A stretch of DNA of 40,671 nucleotides from Myxococcota bacterium (GTDB lineage Bacteria; Myxococcota_A; Polyangia; HGW-17), in NCBI GenBank assembly GCA_018821305.1, contig JAHJMN010000012.1, positions 1-40,671 on the forward strand, in the 5' to 3' direction. Of this stretch, positions 2,897 through 40,399 are shown piece by piece. Numbering within the stretch: position 1 is the stretch's first letter; each line of letters begins with the position of its first letter. A program made the position numbers and the translations under genes. The notes beneath the pieces were generated by a model. The model searched no databases. It was not told the origin of the DNA and saw nothing but the letters and a program-made list of their open reading frames with translations.

Positions 2897-4063
2897 TTAA
2901 AAATCGTTAAACAGGACGGAGGGTACGAAGGATGGGGGATTTTCCGTAACAAAAGGTGTTAAATCACCTCCGGGCCACTTTTCCATGCCTTCGAGGTAAT
3001 TTTTAATGTTGAGGCCTGCAATAATCGCCATGTTTTCACGCGTTTCACAATTTGCGGATCCAAGATGAGGCTGCAAAAAAGCATTTTCAAGTTCCGAAAG
3101 CCCTGGAAATATTACGGGTTCTTTTTCATAAACATCCAGACCGGCACGGAAATTACCGTGATTTCGCAAATGCTCATACAAAGCCTGTTCATCGATCACG
3201 CTTCCACGCGAAACATTTATCAGCAGAGCATCTTCTTTCATTAATGAGAGTTGTTCTGAACCAATAAGATGGTGTGTTTCTTCTGACAAATTCACAAAAA
3301 TAGCCGCAATATCAGAGTATTTCAGTAAACTTTCCAGAGTTACAAATGAAACGCTTATCGGATTAAGACCAATTGAAACCCTCATATCGCTTATTTTTCC
3401 GATTTTTTCTTCAAGGTCCGGTTTCCGAGTTCGGCTGTAATACATGATGTTCATTCCGAAACCAGCAGCCATCTTCAAAGCACAGTCAGAACCTATTTTT
3501 CCTGCTCCAATGATACCCAGAATCCCTCCCCTGAGGTTTTTTCCCGTTAACTGATCGGGAGCCCACCCTTGCCACTGGCCACCTCTCACAAGTCGCTCAC
3601 CTTCACCAAGTCGCCTTGCACATCCCAGAATAAGTCCGCATGCCAAGTCTGAAGTGGCGTCAGTTAATACACCGGGAGTATTTCCAACCTGTATCTGTGC
3701 CTGCTGTGCAGCTTTCAAATCAATATTATTTACGCCTACGGCATAGTTGCTAATAATCTTTACACCACATTCTTTGAGATATTTTATCTTATCCCAGTCC
3801 CAATTGTGTTTTAAAAGTGAGATAACACCAGAATATCCTGCGGAAATTTCTTTATCAATCATTTCCATCGTCAGGACATTCTCATCGGATGGCAAAGTAA
3901 CGCTGAAGCCACTTTTCAATAATATATCGAGCCATTTACGGCCATACAGAGCGCTTGTGGAAAGAATTGCAGGCCCGTTTCCTGTGTGTTTTATCCAGAC
4001 CGCTTCCTGCGTAATACGATTGTGTTGAATTTTTGGAATATATTTCATTTTGACACTCGCCAT
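2897..4063 (-). CDS. D-2-hydroxyacid dehydrogenase, glyoxylate/hydroxypyruvate reductase type
   Basis: The 388-residue protein has the D-isomer 2-hydroxyacid dehydrogenase layout: a substrate-domain YAVGVNNID motif (107-115), the dinucleotide-binding GIIGAGKIG (183-191), and the catalytic triad Arg286 (NVSRGSVID), Glu315 (EKEP) and His333 (QPHLGSAN). YSRTRKP after the second strand of the Rossmann fold resembles the NADPH-preferring GRHPR group. Expected reaction: NAD(P)H-dependent reduction of glyoxylate, hydroxypyruvate or a related 2-oxoacid. It is longer than usual (about 320), with an insertion near 218-242 and a C-terminal tail. The start could also be the ATG at 4048 (MKYIPKI). It is the last gene of a leftward group behind two permeases; a link to their substrate is inference. 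Confidence 0.85.
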   Translation of the reverse strand: MASVKMKYIPKIQHNRITQEAVWIKHTGNGPAILSTSALYGRKWLDILLKSGFSVTLPSDENVLTMEMIDKEISAGYSGVISLLKHNWDWDKIKYLKECGVKIISNYAVGVNNIDLKAAQQAQIQVGNTPGVLTDATSDLACGLILGCARRLGEGERLVRGGQWQGWAPDQLTGKNLRGGILGIIGAGKIGSDCALKMAAGFGMNIMYYSRTRKPDLEEKIGKISDMRVSIGLNPISVSFVTLESLLKYSDIAAIFVNLSEETHHLIGSEQLSLMKEDALLINVSRGSVIDEQALYEHLRNHGNFRAGLDVYEKEPVIFPGLSELENAFLQPHLGSANCETRENMAIIAGLNIKNYLEGMEKWPGGDLTPFVTENPPSFVPSVLFNDF

Positions 4064-23311: not shown

Positions 23312-24844
23312 TCAGGGATGGGAGATGAGATAGCGGCCATCAGCCTGACGAACCACAAGAGTATCTTCATTAATATTCACAACGGGCAGAATGCCAAAAA
23401 GATCAGAGGACCAGGCGCCGGAACTGAAAAGACCGGTGGTAGGCTGAACATAAAAGAGGCTCATGTCATAAAGAATGCCGCTGTAAGATGTAGGAGTACC
23501 TGTACGTGTCCAGTATCTGTCCGGGCCCGCACGACGTTCCGTAGCAGTTGTGGGATCGGAGAACCAATCCAGAACGGGACCGTCGCTGGATAAGAAAGTT
23601 CCACCAAGCTCTGTACGGGAAGGTATGAAAACATAGTTGTCTACAGTTCCTGACGAAGGTGTAGACTGTGGATTATCAAGGGCCCAATCCACGGGAGTAA
23701 GTTCAACTATGCTCTTGAACTCATCGGAAAAACTCTCATAAACGCCTGTAACGTCGTCATTGAGCCAGGTCCTCAATGTGCAAGCTTCCCATTTATTGTA
23801 CCAACCACCATCATGGAAACCACGGAGTGATACAATCCCGGAGCTCATAAGAGTTACTGTTTCAGGGAGATAGGCGCGATGGACTACACGCCACTCAATT
23901 GTATTTCCATCAAAATTCCAGGTATCATCATAAACGATTGCGCCCAGAGCGAGAAACTTAACGGGAACCGGGCCGTAATTGCACATGTGAGTAATGCTCT
24001 CAGAACCGGCAACGCATACACCAGTTCCATCGTCGGCGCAAATTACAATACGAAGCCCGCCTTCAGTACAGTCGCCCTCAACACCAGCGAAGGATGTTGA
24101 AGTAATTATTGGAGTAAGAGCATCGGTACCATCCGTTCCAGTTTCACCGTTACAAACATAGGTTGTTGTCTCAGAACCGGTAACGCATACACCAGCTCCA
24201 TCGTCGGCGCAAATTACAACACGAAGCCCACCTTCCGTGCAGTCTCCCTCAACACCCGTGAAGGGAGTTGTTGTAATTATGGGAGAAAGAGCATCGGTAC
24301 CATTTGTTCCAGCTTCACCGTTACAAACATAGGTTGTTGTCTCAGAACCGGCAACACATACGCCAAATCCATCATCAGTGCAGGCTTCAATACGAAGTCC
24401 GCCTTCCGTGCAGTCTCCCTCAACGCCATCGAAGGGAGTTGTTGTAATTATAGGAGAATTAGCATCGGTACCATTTGTTCCAGCTTCACCGTTACAAACA
24501 TAGGTTGTTGTCTCGGTGCCTTCAGCACACGTGCCAGTACCATCATCGGTGCAAGCTACAATCATCACACCACCGTCGCTACAATCACCCATGGCCCCTT
24601 CAAAGGGAGTAGCGGTCACAAGTGGAGGAGTTGCATTTTCACCAGGGGCGCCATTGCATATAATTTCATCCACTCCATCGACCGTGAGCACAACGCCCCC
24701 ATGAGGGCATTGTTCTATTGTAGCACTCACCATATCCACGTTAGAACCACTGGATGCGGTGCCGTCATCGCAACTGATGGCCAAAAATGTCATTGATAAA
24801 ACCATTGTTGCAAAAATTAAACCTTTAAAAATCGATTGTTGCAT
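23312..24844 (-). CDS. Lipoprotein with tandem Cys repeats and a C-terminal DUF6273-like domain
   Basis: 510 residues. The lipobox LAISC near residue 25 marks an acylated protein. Residues about 70-300 are four 57-residue units (pattern TPFxGVEGDCTEGGLRIxxC, then ETTTYVCNGEAGTNGTDA), resembling the Cys/Gly repeats called DUF7151 in Myxococcota-type proteins. The last 200 residues (IEWRVVHR, TLMSSGIVSLRGFHDGG, CTLRTWLNDD, VFIPSRTELGG) look like a DUF6273 / formylglycine-type domain. Outer-membrane anchored and displayed, function unknown. It converges with deoD. Confidence 0.82.
   Translation of the reverse strand: MQQSIFKGLIFATMVLSMTFLAISCDDGTASSGSNVDMVSATIEQCPHGGVVLTVDGVDEIICNGAPGENATPPLVTATPFEGAMGDCSDGGVMIVACTDDGTGTCAEGTETTTYVCNGEAGTNGTDANSPIITTTPFDGVEGDCTEGGLRIEACTDDGFGVCVAGSETTTYVCNGEAGTNGTDALSPIITTTPFTGVEGDCTEGGLRVVICADDGAGVCVTGSETTTYVCNGETGTDGTDALTPIITSTSFAGVEGDCTEGGLRIVICADDGTGVCVAGSESITHMCNYGPVPVKFLALGAIVYDDTWNFDGNTIEWRVVHRAYLPETVTLMSSGIVSLRGFHDGGWYNKWEACTLRTWLNDDVTGVYESFSDEFKSIVELTPVDWALDNPQSTPSSGTVDNYVFIPSRTELGGTFLSSDGPVLDWFSDPTTATERRAGPDRYWTRTGTPTSYSGILYDMSLFYVQPTTGLFSSGAWSSDLFGILPVVNINEDTLVVRQADGRYLISHP
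23966..24630 (-). repeat. 171-bp tandem repeats inside the lipoprotein gene
   Basis: Four consecutive 171-bp units encode the 57-residue Cys repeats. Neighbouring units share long identical stretches, for example the complement of GCATCGGTACCATTTGTTCC, so copy number may vary between strains. Confidence 0.75.
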
Positions 24845-25053: not shown

Positions 25054-25495
25054 TTTTGTAATCGCATCGATGTGAATGCTCACAGGCAAATCCAATCATT
25101 GACAGTGAACCTGGGGATCATAAACCTGAATGACCACACCCCTGAATCCCCACACAATATTGAATGAACGGATCATAAAACGGATTTACGCGAACCTGAA
25201 TGCAACCCACCACCCCAAAAAGAAACACCGGATAAAGAGCCACAACGTGGCTCACACACATTAGCGAAGGAATTAAAAATGCCAAAGGCATTGAAAATCC
25301 CTGGTACGAAACCACCAACACACCCTTTTCCCCTTCAAGTGCGCCGCCTGCGGCGGCGCACTTGAAGGGGAAAAGGAAATGGATTCAAACCAATTCCCAG
25401 AGCTGAAGCACTGGGCTAATTAAGGGCGTTCTACGAACGCGGAAATTCCGACGTTTTATAATCACATAGACATAAATGACCTCACCCCTGAATCC
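25053..25495 (+). repeat. Structured CACCCCTGAATCC repeat, copy A
   Basis: Order of modules: GTTTTGTAATCGCAT, CAGGCAAATCCAATC, GGGGATCAT, half-unit with CACCCCTGAATCC, AAACACCGGATAAA, hairpin GAGCCAC-AAC-GTGGCTC (25237-25253), TTAGCGAAGG, hairpin AATGCC-AAA-GGCATT (25278-25292), the 25-bp hairpin (25324-25376), hairpin CCCAGAGCTGAAGCACTGGG (25396-25415), hairpin GCGTTC-TAC-GAACGC (25426-25440), then a final half-unit. The same modules recur at 33191-34247 and, reversed, at 39745-40386, with different stem sequences. Confidence 0.75.
25324..25376 (+). ncRNA. 25-bp perfect hairpin of repeat copy A (possible structured RNA or DNA)
   Basis: Arms 25324-25348 and 25352-25376 are perfectly complementary, with loop TGC. 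The inner GCGCCGCC / GGCGGCGC is shared with the other copies; the outer part (CCCCTTCAAGT) is not, yet it is still paired. There is no T-run, so a simple terminator is unlikely. Confidence 0.5.
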
Positions 25496-25560
25496 TAATC
25501 AGCACTTTCCACCGTTACCCCCATCCAGACATTCTCCAACCATTCCAGTCGTTTTCCGGG
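25496..25560 (-). pseudogene. DUF5131 gene fragment
   Basis: The minus strand reads LEWLENVWMGVTVESAD, matching LEWPENVWMGVTVESAD of the DUF5131 gene at 27272-27921. At DNA level about 50 bases align closely with 27510-27563. The fragment has no start and no downstream part and begins at the end of a CACCCCTGAATCC half-unit, so it looks like debris from recombination at the repeat. Confidence 0.7.
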
Positions 25561-25818: not shown

Positions 25819-26820
25819 ATGAATGACATCATCCTCTATACTACAGAAGACGGTCGCAGTCAGATCAAACTCAGAACAAGGAACCAATCCGTCTGGCTCA
25901 CCCAGCGCGAGATGGCACTTCTTTTTGATGTGAGCACGGATAACGTAAGCCTGCACCTTAAAAACATCTTTGCACAGGGGGAGCTCGATGAGCATTCAGT
26001 TACCGAGGAATCCTCGGTAACTGCCGCCGACGGCAAAAACTACCTGACCAGACTCTACAATCTCGATACTATTCTGGCCGTGGGCTATAGAGTGCGTTCG
26101 CCGCGCGGTGTGCAGTTCCGTCGCTGGGCAACCACCATCCTCAAGGAATATCTGTTAAAGGGCTTTGCTATGGATGATGAACGTCTGAAGAATCCGGATG
26201 GCCGGCCGGACTACTTCGACGAGATGCTGGAGCGAATAAGGGACATCCGTGCTTCTGAAAAGCGTTTTTATCAGAAAGTACGCGATCTCTTTGCACTGAG
26301 CAGTGACTATGATAAAACGGACAAAACCACACAGACATTCTTTGCCACTGTGCAAAATGTGCTGCTTTACGCAGTAACCCGGAAAACCGCCGCTGAACTC
26401 ATTACCGACCGAATAAATCCGACTGATCCTCATTTCGGGCTACTCTCCTGGAAGGGTGCCACAGTGCGCAAAGCGGATATCCTTGTGGCTAAAAATTACC
26501 TTACCGAGGATGAGATCGACACATTGAATAGGCTTGTGGTCATCTTTCTGGAAACCGCTGAACTGCGGGCAAAAAGCAAACAGGTGACAACCATGAGTTA
26601 CTGGAGAGAAAATGTAAATCAGATCATAACCTCAAACGGCTTCCCACTGCTAAATCACTCAGGGTCCATAAGTCACGAGAAGATGGAGAGCAAAACAAGC
26701 GCACTTTATCTCGAATACGACCAGCAACGCAAACTTAAAGAAGCAAAGGAAGCAGATCAGGAAGACGAGGTTGACCTCAAAGCCCTCGAAGACGAAATCA
26801 AAGAACGTCCTAACAAATGA
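25819..26820 (+). CDS. rhuM: RhuM-family (virulence RhuM) protein
   Basis: 333 residues. The conserved N-terminal region reads IILYTTEDGRSQIKLRTRNQ, then WLTQREMALLFDVSTDNVSL (DNA-binding-like), YNLDTILAVGYRVRSPRGVQFR and RWATTILKEYLLKGFAMDDE, all typical of RhuM proteins. The C-terminus is charged and helical (ALYLEYDQQRKLKEAKEADQ). RhuM genes often sit inside type I restriction-modification loci; here the gene lies between hsdR and hsdM remnants and its stop overlaps the hsdM start as ATGA. Length is full, so it may still be expressed. Molecular function of the family is unclear. Confidence 0.88.
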   Translation: MNDIILYTTEDGRSQIKLRTRNQSVWLTQREMALLFDVSTDNVSLHLKNIFAQGELDEHSVTEESSVTAADGKNYLTRLYNLDTILAVGYRVRSPRGVQFRRWATTILKEYLLKGFAMDDERLKNPDGRPDYFDEMLERIRDIRASEKRFYQKVRDLFALSSDYDKTDKTTQTFFATVQNVLLYAVTRKTAAELITDRINPTDPHFGLLSWKGATVRKADILVAKNYLTEDEIDTLNRLVVIFLETAELRAKSKQVTTMSYWRENVNQIITSNGFPLLNHSGSISHEKMESKTSALYLEYDQQRKLKEAKEADQEDEVDLKALEDEIKERPNK

Positions 26821-26970
26821 CCAAAAAACCTGGTAACGCACAGTGGGATATAGTTGACCAATTGCGCGGTGCTTTGAACGCGGATGACTTTCGCGATTAC
26901 ATGCTATCTTTCCTTTTTCTGCGCTATCTGTCTGACAACTATGAGGTGTGCGGTGGGGTAATCACATAGA
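26817..26970 (+). pseudogene. hsdM: Type I restriction methylase M subunit, N-terminal fragment
   Basis: Starting in the ATGA overlap with rhuM, the frame reads MTKKPGNAQWDIVDQLRGAL, then NADDFRDYMLSFLFLRYLSD and NYE, the standard beginning of HsdM. After about 43 residues the sequence enters a CACCCCTGAATCC half-unit (GGGGTAATCACAT) and stops at TAG. The methyltransferase domain is lost, so the type I system is not functional here. Confidence 0.8.
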
Positions 26971-27022
26971 CGTGAATGACCACACCCCTGAATCCTCACA
27001 CATCCTTGAATGAACGGATCAT
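26955..27022 (+). repeat. CACCCCTGAATCC-family half-unit at an hsdM/DUF5131 junction
   Basis: GGGGTAATCACATAGACGTG through TGAATGAACGGATCAT matches 33944-34011 nearly base for base. Upstream is truncated hsdM; 24 bases downstream is the 3' end of the split DUF5131 gene. Confidence 0.8.
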
Positions 27023-27045: not shown

Positions 27046-27120
27046 TCATCCTACGGCCTGTCGTGGGAACTCGTCCCAGGTCCGACCGTCGAGCTCGCGA
27101 CCAGCGGCTTTCTTATTAGT
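27046..27120 (-). pseudogene. 3' remainder of the split DUF5131 gene
   Basis: Read on the minus strand from the target duplication, this encodes KKAAGRELDGRTWDEFPRQA then VG and a stop. That is the normal ending of DUF5131 proteins, and it joins exactly in frame to ...FFKQWGGVNK of the main part once the 151-bp element and one target copy are removed. Confidence 0.85.
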
Positions 27121-27271
27121 TCGTGTCCTGAAATTCAATTTTTGTCAAAATTGAGCATGTTTAAGAAAACATGCTATTCAGAACACTACAATAATTTCAA
27201 GCTTTTCATTCTTAATGTCCTGTGTATAAATTCGTCATTAACTTGAAAATGTCGAATTACAGGACATTAAC
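27121..27271 (+). mobile_element. TGTCCTG element, copy 3 (151 bp), inside the DUF5131 gene
   Basis: Runs from TCGTGTCCTGAAATTC to AATTACAGGACATTAAC. Flanks are TTATTAGT (27113-27120) and TTATTAAC (27272-27279), an 8-bp duplication with two changes. The inner hairpin AGCATGTTT-AAGA-AAACATGCT has no sequence match in the other copies. It supplies the new C-terminus and stop of the interrupted gene. Confidence 0.8.
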
Positions 27272-27921
27272 TTATTAACACCACCCCATTGTTTAAAGAA
27301 AAATGAGATTTTCTGCTTTGTACATTGATCCCGGATATCTTTTACCCACAAAGGATTCATTTTGCGGGCTCCGGGCCCGGATTCACCACCGGCAATTACC
27401 CAGTCAATTCCTGATAAATCAACTTCCGGAATCCCGGAAATAAGGGGCTCCATGCTTATAAACTTCACGAAAGAAGGCACCGATTTCAAATCATCAATAC
27501 GATGAACATAATCAGCACTTTCCACCGTTACCCCCATCCACACATTCTCCGGCCATTCCAGTTCCCCCGCCATTTCCGCCAGTATGTCTGACCTCTTCGT
27601 AAGAACCTGAAACGTATGCTGCTTTGCCACCGTCATCACTCTGAAAATCTCCCGGATAAACTCTCCCGGAACATCCTCATGAAACAAATCACTCATACTG
27701 TTAACAAAGATCATCCTCGGCTTTTTCCACAGAAGCGGATACCCCACAACACCCTCATGACACCGCACTTCAAATCCATCTCTATAATTTACCTGCCCCA
27801 TTGCCTGAAGCCGCAACGCCATCCTCTCGGCATAACAGTTCCGACACCCCTCACTGATTTTAGTACACCCCGTAACAGGATTCCAGGTAACCTCAGTCCA
27901 CTCAATCCGAGTACTCGCCAT
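27238..27921 (-). CDS. DUF5131 (phage Gp37/Gp68-like) protein, C-terminus replaced by an insertion
   Basis: 227 residues. It starts STRIEWTEVTWNPVTGC and has the family's Cys set Cys19-x6-Cys26-x2-Cys29 (GCTKISEGCRNCY), MIFVNSMSDLFHEDVP, FQVLTKRSD, VWMGVTVES, FISMEPLI and WVIAGGESGPGARKM. From NKLMSCNSTFSS onward the residues are encoded by the TGTCCTG element; the native end lies at 27046-27120. About 24 native residues are replaced, so activity is doubtful. The family occurs in phages and defence islands, often with a TcmP partner, which was not seen here. Biochemical role unknown. Confidence 0.85.
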   Translation of the reverse strand: MASTRIEWTEVTWNPVTGCTKISEGCRNCYAERMALRLQAMGQVNYRDGFEVRCHEGVVGYPLLWKKPRMIFVNSMSDLFHEDVPGEFIREIFRVMTVAKQHTFQVLTKRSDILAEMAGELEWPENVWMGVTVESADYVHRIDDLKSVPSFVKFISMEPLISGIPEVDLSGIDWVIAGGESGPGARKMNPLWVKDIRDQCTKQKISFFFKQWGGVNKLMSCNSTFSS

Positions 27922-33190: not shown

Positions 33191-34247
33191 CGGCGTTTTG
33201 TAACTTGAATCTGGGAGACATAATCACATAAACCAGAATGATCACAATATTGAATCCGCGGATCATGAGCCTGTGCCTGCACAGGCGAAAGCTTATCAGC
33301 CCGGTTCGTAAGAGCCGGGTTCGAAAATGCACGGACCCCTTTCCCCCTTTGCTTGCGCCGCCGCAGGCGGCGCAAGCAAAGGGGGAAAAGAAAGGGATAT
33401 GAACATCTGATCCCAGAGCTGAAGCACTGGGCTAATTAAGGGCGTTCTACGAACGCAGAATTTCCGACGTTTTCTAATCACATCAACGTGAATGCTCACA
33501 GGCAAATCCAATCGTTGGCGGTGAACGTGGGGATCATAAACATGAATGACAACACCCTGAATCCTCACACATCCTTGAATAAACGGATCATAAAAAACAC
33601 GGAATTACGCGATTCTGAATGCAAACTTCCGACCCTAAAAAGAAACACCGGATAAAGAGCCACAACGTGGTTCTCACACATTAGCGAAGGGTTCAAAGAT
33701 GCCAGCGGCATCAAAGATCCCTGGTGGGCGCCGGGGTAATCACATCATCCTGAATGACCACACCCCTGAATCCTCACACATCCTTGAATGAACGGATCTT
33801 TAAAAAAAACGGAATTACGCGATTCTGAATGCAATCAACCATCTTCAAAACGAAACACCGGAAAAAGAACCTGCATCGCGGGTTCCACACATTAGCGAAG
33901 GGATCAAAGATGCCAGCGGCATCAAGGATCCCTGGTGGGCGCCGGGGTAATCACATAGACGTGAATGACCACACCCCTGAATCCTCACATCCTTGAATGA
34001 ACGGATCATAAAAACACGGAATAACGGAATAACGCGATTCTGAATGCAACATCCCGACCTCAAAAAGAAACACCGGATAAAGAGCCACAACGTGGTTCTC
34101 ACACATTAGCGAAGGGATCAAAGATGCCAGCGGCATCAAGGATCCCTGGTGGGCGGTGGGGTAATCACATCAGCCTGAATGACCTCACCCCTGAATCCCC
34201 TTGCGACGCTGAATGAACGGATCATACAAAACACGGAATTTATTATT
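33191..34247 (+). repeat. Structured CACCCCTGAATCC repeat array, copy B
   Basis: The left part holds hairpins GCCTGTGC-CT-GCACAGGC (33269-33286), CCCGGTTC-GTAA-GAGCCGGG (33300-33319), a 23-bp hairpin (33340-33388), CCCAGAGCTGAAGCACTGGG (33412-33431) and GCGTTC-TAC-GAACGC (33442-33456). The right part is a tandem array with GGGG starts at 33529, 33733, 33944 and 34158, a 204-214 bp period. Each full unit has CACCCCTGAATCC (or a close variant), ACACCGGA, a variable hairpin with AAC/ATC loop, TTAGCGAAGG and GATGCC-AGC-GGCATC, then CCCTGGTGGGCG. Confidence 0.8.
33340..33388 (+). ncRNA. 23-bp perfect hairpin of repeat copy B (possible structured RNA or DNA)
   Basis: Arms 33340-33362 and 33366-33388 pair perfectly, with loop GCA. 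It is in the same position relative to flanking modules as the hairpins at 25324-25376 and 39820-39872, but its middle (TTTGCTTGCG) differs. Confidence 0.5.
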
Positions 34248-34300
34248 TCGTTACACGCAGGTACCAGACGGCAGCCCTTAAGACCAACCATCCGTATAAA

Positions 34301-34440
34301 CTATACTTCTGGGGTATCGGGGGTGTCTTCGTTGCGGGTGGGGGAGGAGATGCCCATCATGATTCGGAGTTGTTTGTTTGGAACTATTGTGCGGGCGGTT
34401 TTTGCCCAGTCCTGATACCATGCCCACATTTCCTCACGGG
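34301..34440 (-). pseudogene. Duplicated 3' fragment of the 38118-38744 gene
   Basis: The minus strand encodes REEMWAWYQDWAKTARTIVP, then NKQLRIMMGISSPTRNED and TPDTPEV with a stop. It equals the C-terminal 45 or so residues of the gene at 38118-38744 apart from a 9-base loss near the end. There is no start or upstream part; upstream DNA turns into an unrelated AT-rich sequence. The 3' flanks of both copies also share TTTATTATTTCGT. It sits at the end of the copy B array. Confidence 0.8.
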
Positions 34441-38117: not shown

Positions 38118-38744
38118 TTATACTTCGGGGTTTTCTGGGGTTTCGGGGGTGTCTTCGTTGCGGGTGGGGGAGGAGATGCCCATCATGATTCGGAGTTGTT
38201 TGTTTGGAACTATTGTGCGGGCGGTTTTTGCCCAGTCCTGATACCAGGCCCACATTTCTTCCCGGGCTGCTTCCAGTTCAGCTTTGTTTATCATCCAGGA
38301 ATCATCGGGGGTATTTTTACCCTTTGCCTGATCAAGAAGGGTAGTTACTTCGTTGATTTTTTCATTTGTAAGACCACGCTTGGCTAAAAGAGCCATGGCA
38401 TCGGTCCAGGGAGCAGAGGTTTTTCCGGCAATGCTATTAAGGCGGTTTGTAAACTCATTTACATTTGCCACAACTTCAATTCCGCTTGTTTTATTGAGAT
38501 TTGTAAAAAGTTCCTTGTGTACTTCGGGGTGTTTTCTTGAAAGGGCTGCATCTGCAACGTCAAACCAGGTGTTTTCCCAGTTATCAATAGCTGAAATAAG
38601 ATCGGAAGTAGCACCTACATCCGGATTGGATGATGCCCCGAGACTACGGCCTGTGGCTTTTTCAAACAACTGCCATCCTTCTGTTAATTCTGCTTCGTCA
38701 AATCCGCGCTGCAGCATGATTGAACGAATCCTTGTGTTCTGCAT
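38118..38744 (-). CDS. Conserved hypothetical helical protein, probably interrupted by an in-frame stop
   Basis: 208 residues from ATG 38744. The sequence is helical (RIRSIMLQRGFDEAELTEGW, DAALSRKHPEVHKELFTNLN, AELEAAREEMWAWYQDWAKT) and ends in a Pro/Glu tail. No known domain was recognised. No ribosome site is visible before 38744, while the 18-codon frame just upstream, in the same frame and ended by TAA directly before this ATG, has AAGGAG. The natural protein therefore probably began at 38801 and has acquired a stop, unless readthrough or re-initiation occurs. A 3' fragment is duplicated at 34301-34440. Confidence 0.6.
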   Translation of the reverse strand: MQNTRIRSIMLQRGFDEAELTEGWQLFEKATGRSLGASSNPDVGATSDLISAIDNWENTWFDVADAALSRKHPEVHKELFTNLNKTSGIEVVANVNEFTNRLNSIAGKTSAPWTDAMALLAKRGLTNEKINEVTTLLDQAKGKNTPDDSWMINKAELEAAREEMWAWYQDWAKTARTIVPNKQLRIMMGISSPTRNEDTPETPENPEV

Positions 38745-39744: not shown

Positions 39745-39819
39745 TCCGATTTTCCGCGTTCGTAGAACGCCTTTATTTAGCCCGGAGTTTCAACTCCGGG
39801 ATCAGGAGTTAAATCCTTT

Positions 39820-39872
39820 CCTTTCGCCCTTTTGCTGCGCCGCCGTCGGCGGCGCAGCAAAAGGGCGAAAGG
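39820..39872 (-). ncRNA. 25-bp perfect hairpin of repeat copy C (possible structured RNA or DNA)
   Basis: Arms 39820-39844 and 39848-39872 pair perfectly, loop GTC on the plus strand. The terminal GCGCCGCC / GGCGGCGC is as in copies A and B; the outer stem (CCTTTCGCCCTTTTGCT) is different but fully paired. Confidence 0.5.
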
Positions 39873-39950
39873 GGCATGCGTGTTTTCTTACCCGGCTCTT
39901 ACGAACCGGGCTGATAAACTTGCGCCTGTGTTGGCACAGGCCCATGATCC

Positions 39951-40190
39951 GATCATTCAGCATCGGCGGGTGGATTCAGGGGTGTCGTCATTCACGTCTA
40001 TGTGATTGCCCCACCGCCCACCAGGGATCCGTTCATTCAGCATCGACGGGTGGATTCAGGGGTGTGGTCATTCATGTCTATGTGATTACCCCAGCGCCCA
40101 CCAGGGATCCGATCATTCAACGTCGGCGTTTGGATTCAGGGGTGTTGTCATTCAGGTCTATGTGATTACCCCGGCGCCCACCAGGGATCC
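39951..40190 (-). repeat. Three tandem 80-bp half-units
   Basis: CCAGGGATCC starts at 40021, 40101 and 40181, exactly 80 bp apart; each unit has GGATTCAGGGGTG, TCATTCA and TATGTGATTACCCC on the plus strand. Open frames through this region are translations of the repeat and are not genes. Confidence 0.85.
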
Positions 40191-40399
40191 GCGATGCCGC
40201 TGGCATCTTTGATCCCTTCGCTTACACCGTTTTTCGCAGAAAAACGGTGAATGTGTTGAAACCGCGTTGCGGGTTCTGGTTCCGTGGTTTCTTTTGAGGT
40301 TGGTTGTTTGAATGCAGTATCGCGTAATCCTGTGTTGGCACAGGCTCATGCTCCGATCATTCAGCATTGGCGGTTGGATTCAGGGGAGAAATATTTGTT

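Follow-up and report, generated by a model that had tools for sequence, protein, structure and literature searches.

From our point of view, the tandem repeats described here are best read as belonging to a mosaic of the REP/BIME-like kind that is associated with a TnpA of subclass 1.2, and we give a probability of about 0.7 to the reading that the array is a cluster of such a family which is run by a Y1 HuH transposase with the subclass 1.2 signature. The array lies in the window (the whole analysed stretch of 40,671 nucleotides, contig C146 of a 5.2-Mb host genome in 216 contigs), and it is probably mobilised by a single-strand transposase of the Y1 HuH type, the genes of which are located elsewhere in the genome and are bracketed by hairpins of the mosaic. 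The system works like a REP system; because neither the GT[AG]G foot nor the Y---NP signature is found in it, we do not file it as a canonical REP family.

The array was located by TRF at positions 33535-34240 (period 214, 3.4 copies, score 973), and a profile of the unit placed the starts at 33534, 33737, 33948 and 34162. Its layout is X-Y-Z three times and then X, namely three units on the plus strand at 33534..33736 (with X truncated at the start), 33737..33947 and 33948..34161, and an array end at 34162..34240 (+) that consists of the terminal X and the beginning of Y. An earlier note on this DNA had proposed tandem units with a spacing of 204, 211 and 214 bp, and both methods bear this out with three full units and a partial fourth. 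Tandem units do occupy the extent it had claimed, but its boundaries cut a larger mosaic that reaches from about 33221 to 34240.

Module X is a 66-bp connector (TAATCACAT...GGATCAT) without a clear hairpin, module Y comprises about 55 bp, and module Z consists of two paired hairpins (Z1 and Z2). The proposed first hairpins match letter for letter on the plus strand, with GAGCCAC-AAC-GTGGTTC in unit 1 (33657..33673, one G-T pair) and again in unit 3 (34082..34098), and GAACCTGC-ATC-GCGGGTTC in unit 2 (33867..33885). Z2 follows at 33689..33721, 33900..33932 and 34114..34146 (all +), and in unit 1 its outer stem GGGTTC..GATCCC encloses GATGCC-AGC-GGCATC; this second hairpin had been described correctly, as had its counterpart AATGCC-AAA-GGCATT in copy A (25113-25305). 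A further palindrome, CACCGTTTTTC-TGC-GAAAAACGGTG, was seen at a constant place between Z1 and Z2 at about 40225-40251 and on contigs C106, C69, C57, C87 and C103. When the whole unit was folded as a single strand, it did no better than its shuffles (z -0.88 on the plus and 0.29 on the minus strand), the folding excess being limited to the local hairpins. An integron attC array was rejected by inspection, which revealed neither cassette ORFs nor the layout of attC core sites.

The differences between copies are mostly paired, as the earlier note had claimed for all of them; an uncompensated T-T mismatch between GGGTTC and GATCCC in unit 1 is the exception to its rule of pair-preserving or G-T changes. 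Among 38 copies of the Z2 inner stem there are 17 distinct versions, which together hold 101 Watson-Crick pairs, one G-T pair and no other mismatch, with positions 1, 4 and 6 altered on both sides, and copies from across the genome gave no sign of one arm changing without the other at most positions. On the plus strand, Z1 shows seven distinct G-T pairs and zero A-C pairs, an asymmetry suggesting that one strand matters, be it as DNA or as RNA. The loops, by contrast with what had been claimed, are not constant, since Z1 has AAC or ATC in the array and AAGCC elsewhere, and Z2 has AGC, GGA, GGAA, ACC, AAA and GCA among others. Most copies of the long palindrome P, collected via an anchor in one arm only, pair at 22 of 22 scored arm positions and the others at 19-21; the arms come in about 18 different sequences. 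Some copies of P on contig C86 have two arms that belong to different neighbouring palindromes, and in view of this exchange between copies, arm-to-arm copying has to be taken seriously as an alternative to compensatory mutations that arose independently.

A genome-wide search with the unit, as the earlier note had suggested, returned about 98 BLAST matches in the host genome, many at contig ends and all of them mosaics of X and paired short hairpins, and the modules are present on more than 30 contigs. The same unit had no match in 38 relatives, the congener included, and a scan of the genome collection with module X as a DNA pattern likewise gave none; in the congener, the genes that flank the repeats are not syntenic. 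Short palindromes occur in many copies, paired or clustered, in this genome. Directly upstream of the array lies the block M1-P-mid-outer (33269-33456). Its M1 module is a hairpin pair, with GCCTGTG-CCTG-CACAGGC (M1a) at 33269..33286 (+) and CCCGGTTC-GTAA-GAGCCGGG (M1b, with a 5' foot TCAG) at 33296..33319 (+). Palindrome P follows at 33340..33388 with perfect 23-bp arms, then the mid hairpin CCCGGAGC-TGAA-GCTCCGGG at 33412..33435 on the minus strand with the foot TTAG, and the outer hairpin GCGTTC-TAC-GAACGC at 33442..33456. The outer hairpin has 73 genomic sites versus 3 for a reversed control pattern. The foot of the mid hairpin reads [AT]TAG in 30 of 34 copies (NTAG in 31 of 34); no clear TAG foot was seen at the Z hairpins.

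The array modules recur twice more in the window. At 25113-25496, copy A of the unit (25113..25305, +) stands next to P, mid and outer (25324..25440, +, with an RF01687-like match at 25396-25439), and a third mosaic at 39756..40389 on the minus strand contains a unit, three copies of X, M1, P, mid and outer; orientation relative to the neighbouring genes is inconsistent within the window. An isolated X is found at 26945..27022 (+), where an hsdM-like frame ends right at X (both within 26820-27022) and the remainder of the gene does not follow. Near-identical fragments from the end of a single gene (the ORF 38118-38744) stand beside X at 34300-34430, at 38120-38260 and on C126 near 25200-25330, and it looks as if X marks rearrangement breakpoints. 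The DNA harbours other repeats as well, namely a further dispersed family, about 200 bp long, whose ends resemble AGTTCGTGTCCTG and CAGGACATTAACT (about 27115-27290 in the window, 3115-3340 at locus L068), and, inside reading frames at 9-382 and 23998-24514, tandem repeats of 159 and 171 bp that keep the frame.

Three Y1 transposase genes are encoded in the genome, namely L066 (contig C8), L067 (C84) and L068 (C131), the proteins of the first two being 85% identical; the L067 protein has 142 aa and is encoded at 1489-1914 of its locus. In an alignment of nine sequences, drawn from the window's own family and from relatives in Victivallales, Acidobacteria, Blastocatellia and Planctomycetota, WQ, Y---Q--HH and both histidines of the HuH motif are conserved throughout. 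The motifs DH[IV]H, WQ and Y---Q--HH, a length of about 142-153 aa and a low copy number are those of TnpA-Y1 subclass 1.2, an assignment that rests on motifs and not on the clustering of Quentin et al.; the class 2 signature Y---NP is replaced by Y---Q--HH. L067 scores 78.6 with the NCBIfam model for IS200/IS605 transposases (cut-off 55), and the REP-associated NCBIfam model gave 23 bits, below its cut-off of 80. In the table of Quentin et al. (2018, PMC6006769), REP is entered as 'no' for subclass 1.2, and according to that paper the subclass does not share the properties of IS elements; here, by contrast, hairpin blocks dispersed over the genome bracket the gene.

L066 and L067 are both flanked by outer, mid and P on either side, in mirror image, and we conclude from this arrangement that these hairpins of the mosaic form the two ends of a unit which carries the transposase gene. 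The M1-P-mid-outer block in the window looks like a gene-less version of it, in which P lies between two hairpins whose feet point outwards. The L066 unit (G000:C8:12434-15060) is embedded in a CRISPR array, and beside it a hairpin block plus CRISPR repeat is tandemly duplicated. Beside L066 or L067 no tnpB was noticed. The flanks of L068 showed no mirrored hairpins, and the idea that this gene is the counterpart of the Z hairpins was accordingly dropped. Z hairpins were not observed adjoining any tnpA gene; Z2 lies within 600 bp of tnpA-type hairpins in 61% of copies, compared with 26% for positions drawn at random from these loci. This neighbourhood and the like paired design are consistent with the Z hairpins being moved by an enzyme of the L066/L067 type.

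Mirrored hairpins also accompany such genes in relatives. From 284 genomes of the phylum and the loci of earlier searches, 39 signature proteins with usable flanks were obtained, and the flanks of these Y---Q--HH genes hold a mean of 2.41 hairpins versus 0.36 in shuffles, with mirroring that exceeds every shuffle in 27 of the 39. Within the clade of the tree to which the host's own genes belong, 12 of 18 genes had mirrored flanks (at least 15 bases), whereas among 65 control ORFs taken from these loci 7 had them (p = 5e-6, a value that ignores kinship); the absence of REP or terminal hairpins that is ascribed to subclass 1.2 does not apply to these 12 loci. Five of the 18, L068 among them, lacked mirrored flanks. 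The mid foot reads GTAG, the tag of classical REPs, in the relatives L070, L121 and L133, and hairpin blocks were dispersed in the three relatives tested, with 21 (G006), 36 (G269) and 49 (G203) matches. Two Cytophagales plasmids also carry genes of the subclass 1.2 type, and the flanks of the one on CP012861.1 contain mirrored TAG-footed hairpins.

At gathering thresholds Rfam found no match in the window, and a sensitive scan aligned mid plus outer (33412..33455, +) with the full length of RF01687, Acido-Lenti-1 (1-46/46), at 29.6 bits, below the cut-off of 37. Next to the subclass 1.2 gene L118 the score is 37.8, above that cut-off. The layout of the family (hairpin, CUA, linker, second hairpin) is that of mid plus outer, and whereas Rfam files it as an sRNA, matches to it lie inverted on both sides of tnpA in L066, L067 and L118. 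Of the 284 genomes, 8 match the protein profile strongly, and 7 of these contain RF01687, as do 16 of the 276 others (p = 7e-8, again ignoring kinship); in some genomes 18-20 or more copies are dispersed. When the genomes that contain RF01687 but lack a strong protein match were searched more loosely, most of them still yielded none, so that the co-occurrence with the transposase is strong in one direction only. G040, G097 and G187 have about 18-20 or more RF01687 matches each, and the subclass 1.2 profile matched weaker in G097 and G187 and not at all in G040, so that a different mover or the loss of the gene may be involved there. Acido-Lenti-1 is a probable RNA of unknown function according to its authors (PMC2864571), and a 2026 paper proposes that it may regulate Tannerella proteases (PMC13298647). 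In a literature coverage that is incomplete, we found no paper that connects REP elements with subclass 1.2 or with Acido-Lenti-1. The microRNA matches of palindrome P were set aside as chance hits of a long perfect hairpin.

One could imagine that the array represents a tandem structured RNA, i.e. transcribed small RNAs or RNA-processing elements with a pairing that is kept under RNA selection. Such a view could draw on the paired stem changes, on the Z1 stems with G-T and no A-C pairs on the plus strand and on the match to a family catalogued as sRNA. DNA hairpins, however, tolerate G-T pairs too, and the mirroring of the blocks on both sides of a transposase gene, the tens of dispersed copies per genome and whole units that fold no better than shuffles make an RNA quite improbable. 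From our point of view, hairpins that belong to a transposase system and act as DNA agree better with the evidence than a structured RNA in tandem copies does.

Given that the NCBIfam score for IS200/IS605 exceeds its cut-off, that the closest solved structures are IS608 TnpA and its relatives, and that one gene copy lies within a CRISPR array, an ordinary IS200/IS605 insertion sequence accompanied by internally deleted copies, with no REP-like behaviour, has to be weighed as well. The catalytic core is shared with IS608 and recognition of hairpins is to be expected; the ends, however, are mirrored multi-hairpin blocks here, gene-less pairs and clusters predominate, and instead of the several nearly identical full-length copies to be expected of IS200/IS605 there are only two related, divergent gene copies as against 73 outer hairpins. 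As the protein signature is moreover that of a subclass described without shared IS properties (PMC6006769), we consider this explanation unlikely. Very unlikely, in our opinion, is a passive satellite, in which X and the hairpins would have spread by recombination or slippage, with pairing from arm-to-arm copying and no transposase. The tandem chains of X alone (39946-40191), the C86 palindromes with arms from different neighbours and the Z hairpins that were not seen adjoining tnpA would suit it, but the same modules are scattered over more than 30 contigs, and modules shared with the mosaics make up the mirrored flanks of tnpA.

We therefore return to the REP/BIME-like reading. The modules, their copy number, the mirrored tnpA flanks, the paired stem changes and the complementary arms of P can be read directly from the sequence. 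In the mechanism that we propose, the paired short hairpins and the connector X would spread as non-autonomous elements: hairpins would form once the DNA is single-stranded, and the transposase would recognise a hairpin with its TAG-type foot as a guide, cut and rejoin single strands and put copies elsewhere. Recombination between directly repeated copies of X could subsequently have amplified the X-Y-Z segment into the tandem array, the Z hairpins may be mobilised by the same enzyme, and the pairing might be maintained because selection favours the hairpin, because one arm is copied from its partner, or for both reasons.

As in the REP/BIME/REPIN systems with TnpAREP (RAYT, class 2 TnpA-Y1), many species-specific intergenic hairpins are paired and clustered, a Y1 HuH gene lies between inverted hairpins (here outer, mid and P, with no Z hairpin of the array type seen there), a TAG-type foot is present (here at the mid hairpin), and the stems come in alternative complementary versions. 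The transposase, however, carries Y---Q--HH instead of Y---NP, the foot in this genome is [AT]TAG instead of GT[AG]G, and the long perfect palindrome P, the conserved X and the tandem X-Y-Z units are further differences. The earlier note had regarded tandem arrangement plus covariation as unusual for ordinary intergenic repeats. The repeats are indeed non-random and their pairing is kept, but these traits do not by themselves make them a new class of element, as both tandem clusters and alternative complementary stem residues have been documented for REP elements (PMC3733652).

Whether subclass 1.2 as a whole represents a further REP-driving lineage, found in several phyla, with blocks that include Acido-Lenti-1 as a DNA-element end and with the present units as a second, non-autonomous hairpin family amplified by that system, appears to us evenly balanced. 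If this is true, a subclass that has been reported without REP partners would gain its partner DNA, which would bear on the origin of REP systems from IS200-type transposases, and Acido-Lenti-1 would be reassigned from a catalogued small RNA and possible regulator to an end structure of a DNA element. The many different, nearly perfect palindromes within one genome further provide material to separate selection for pairing from arm-to-arm correction.
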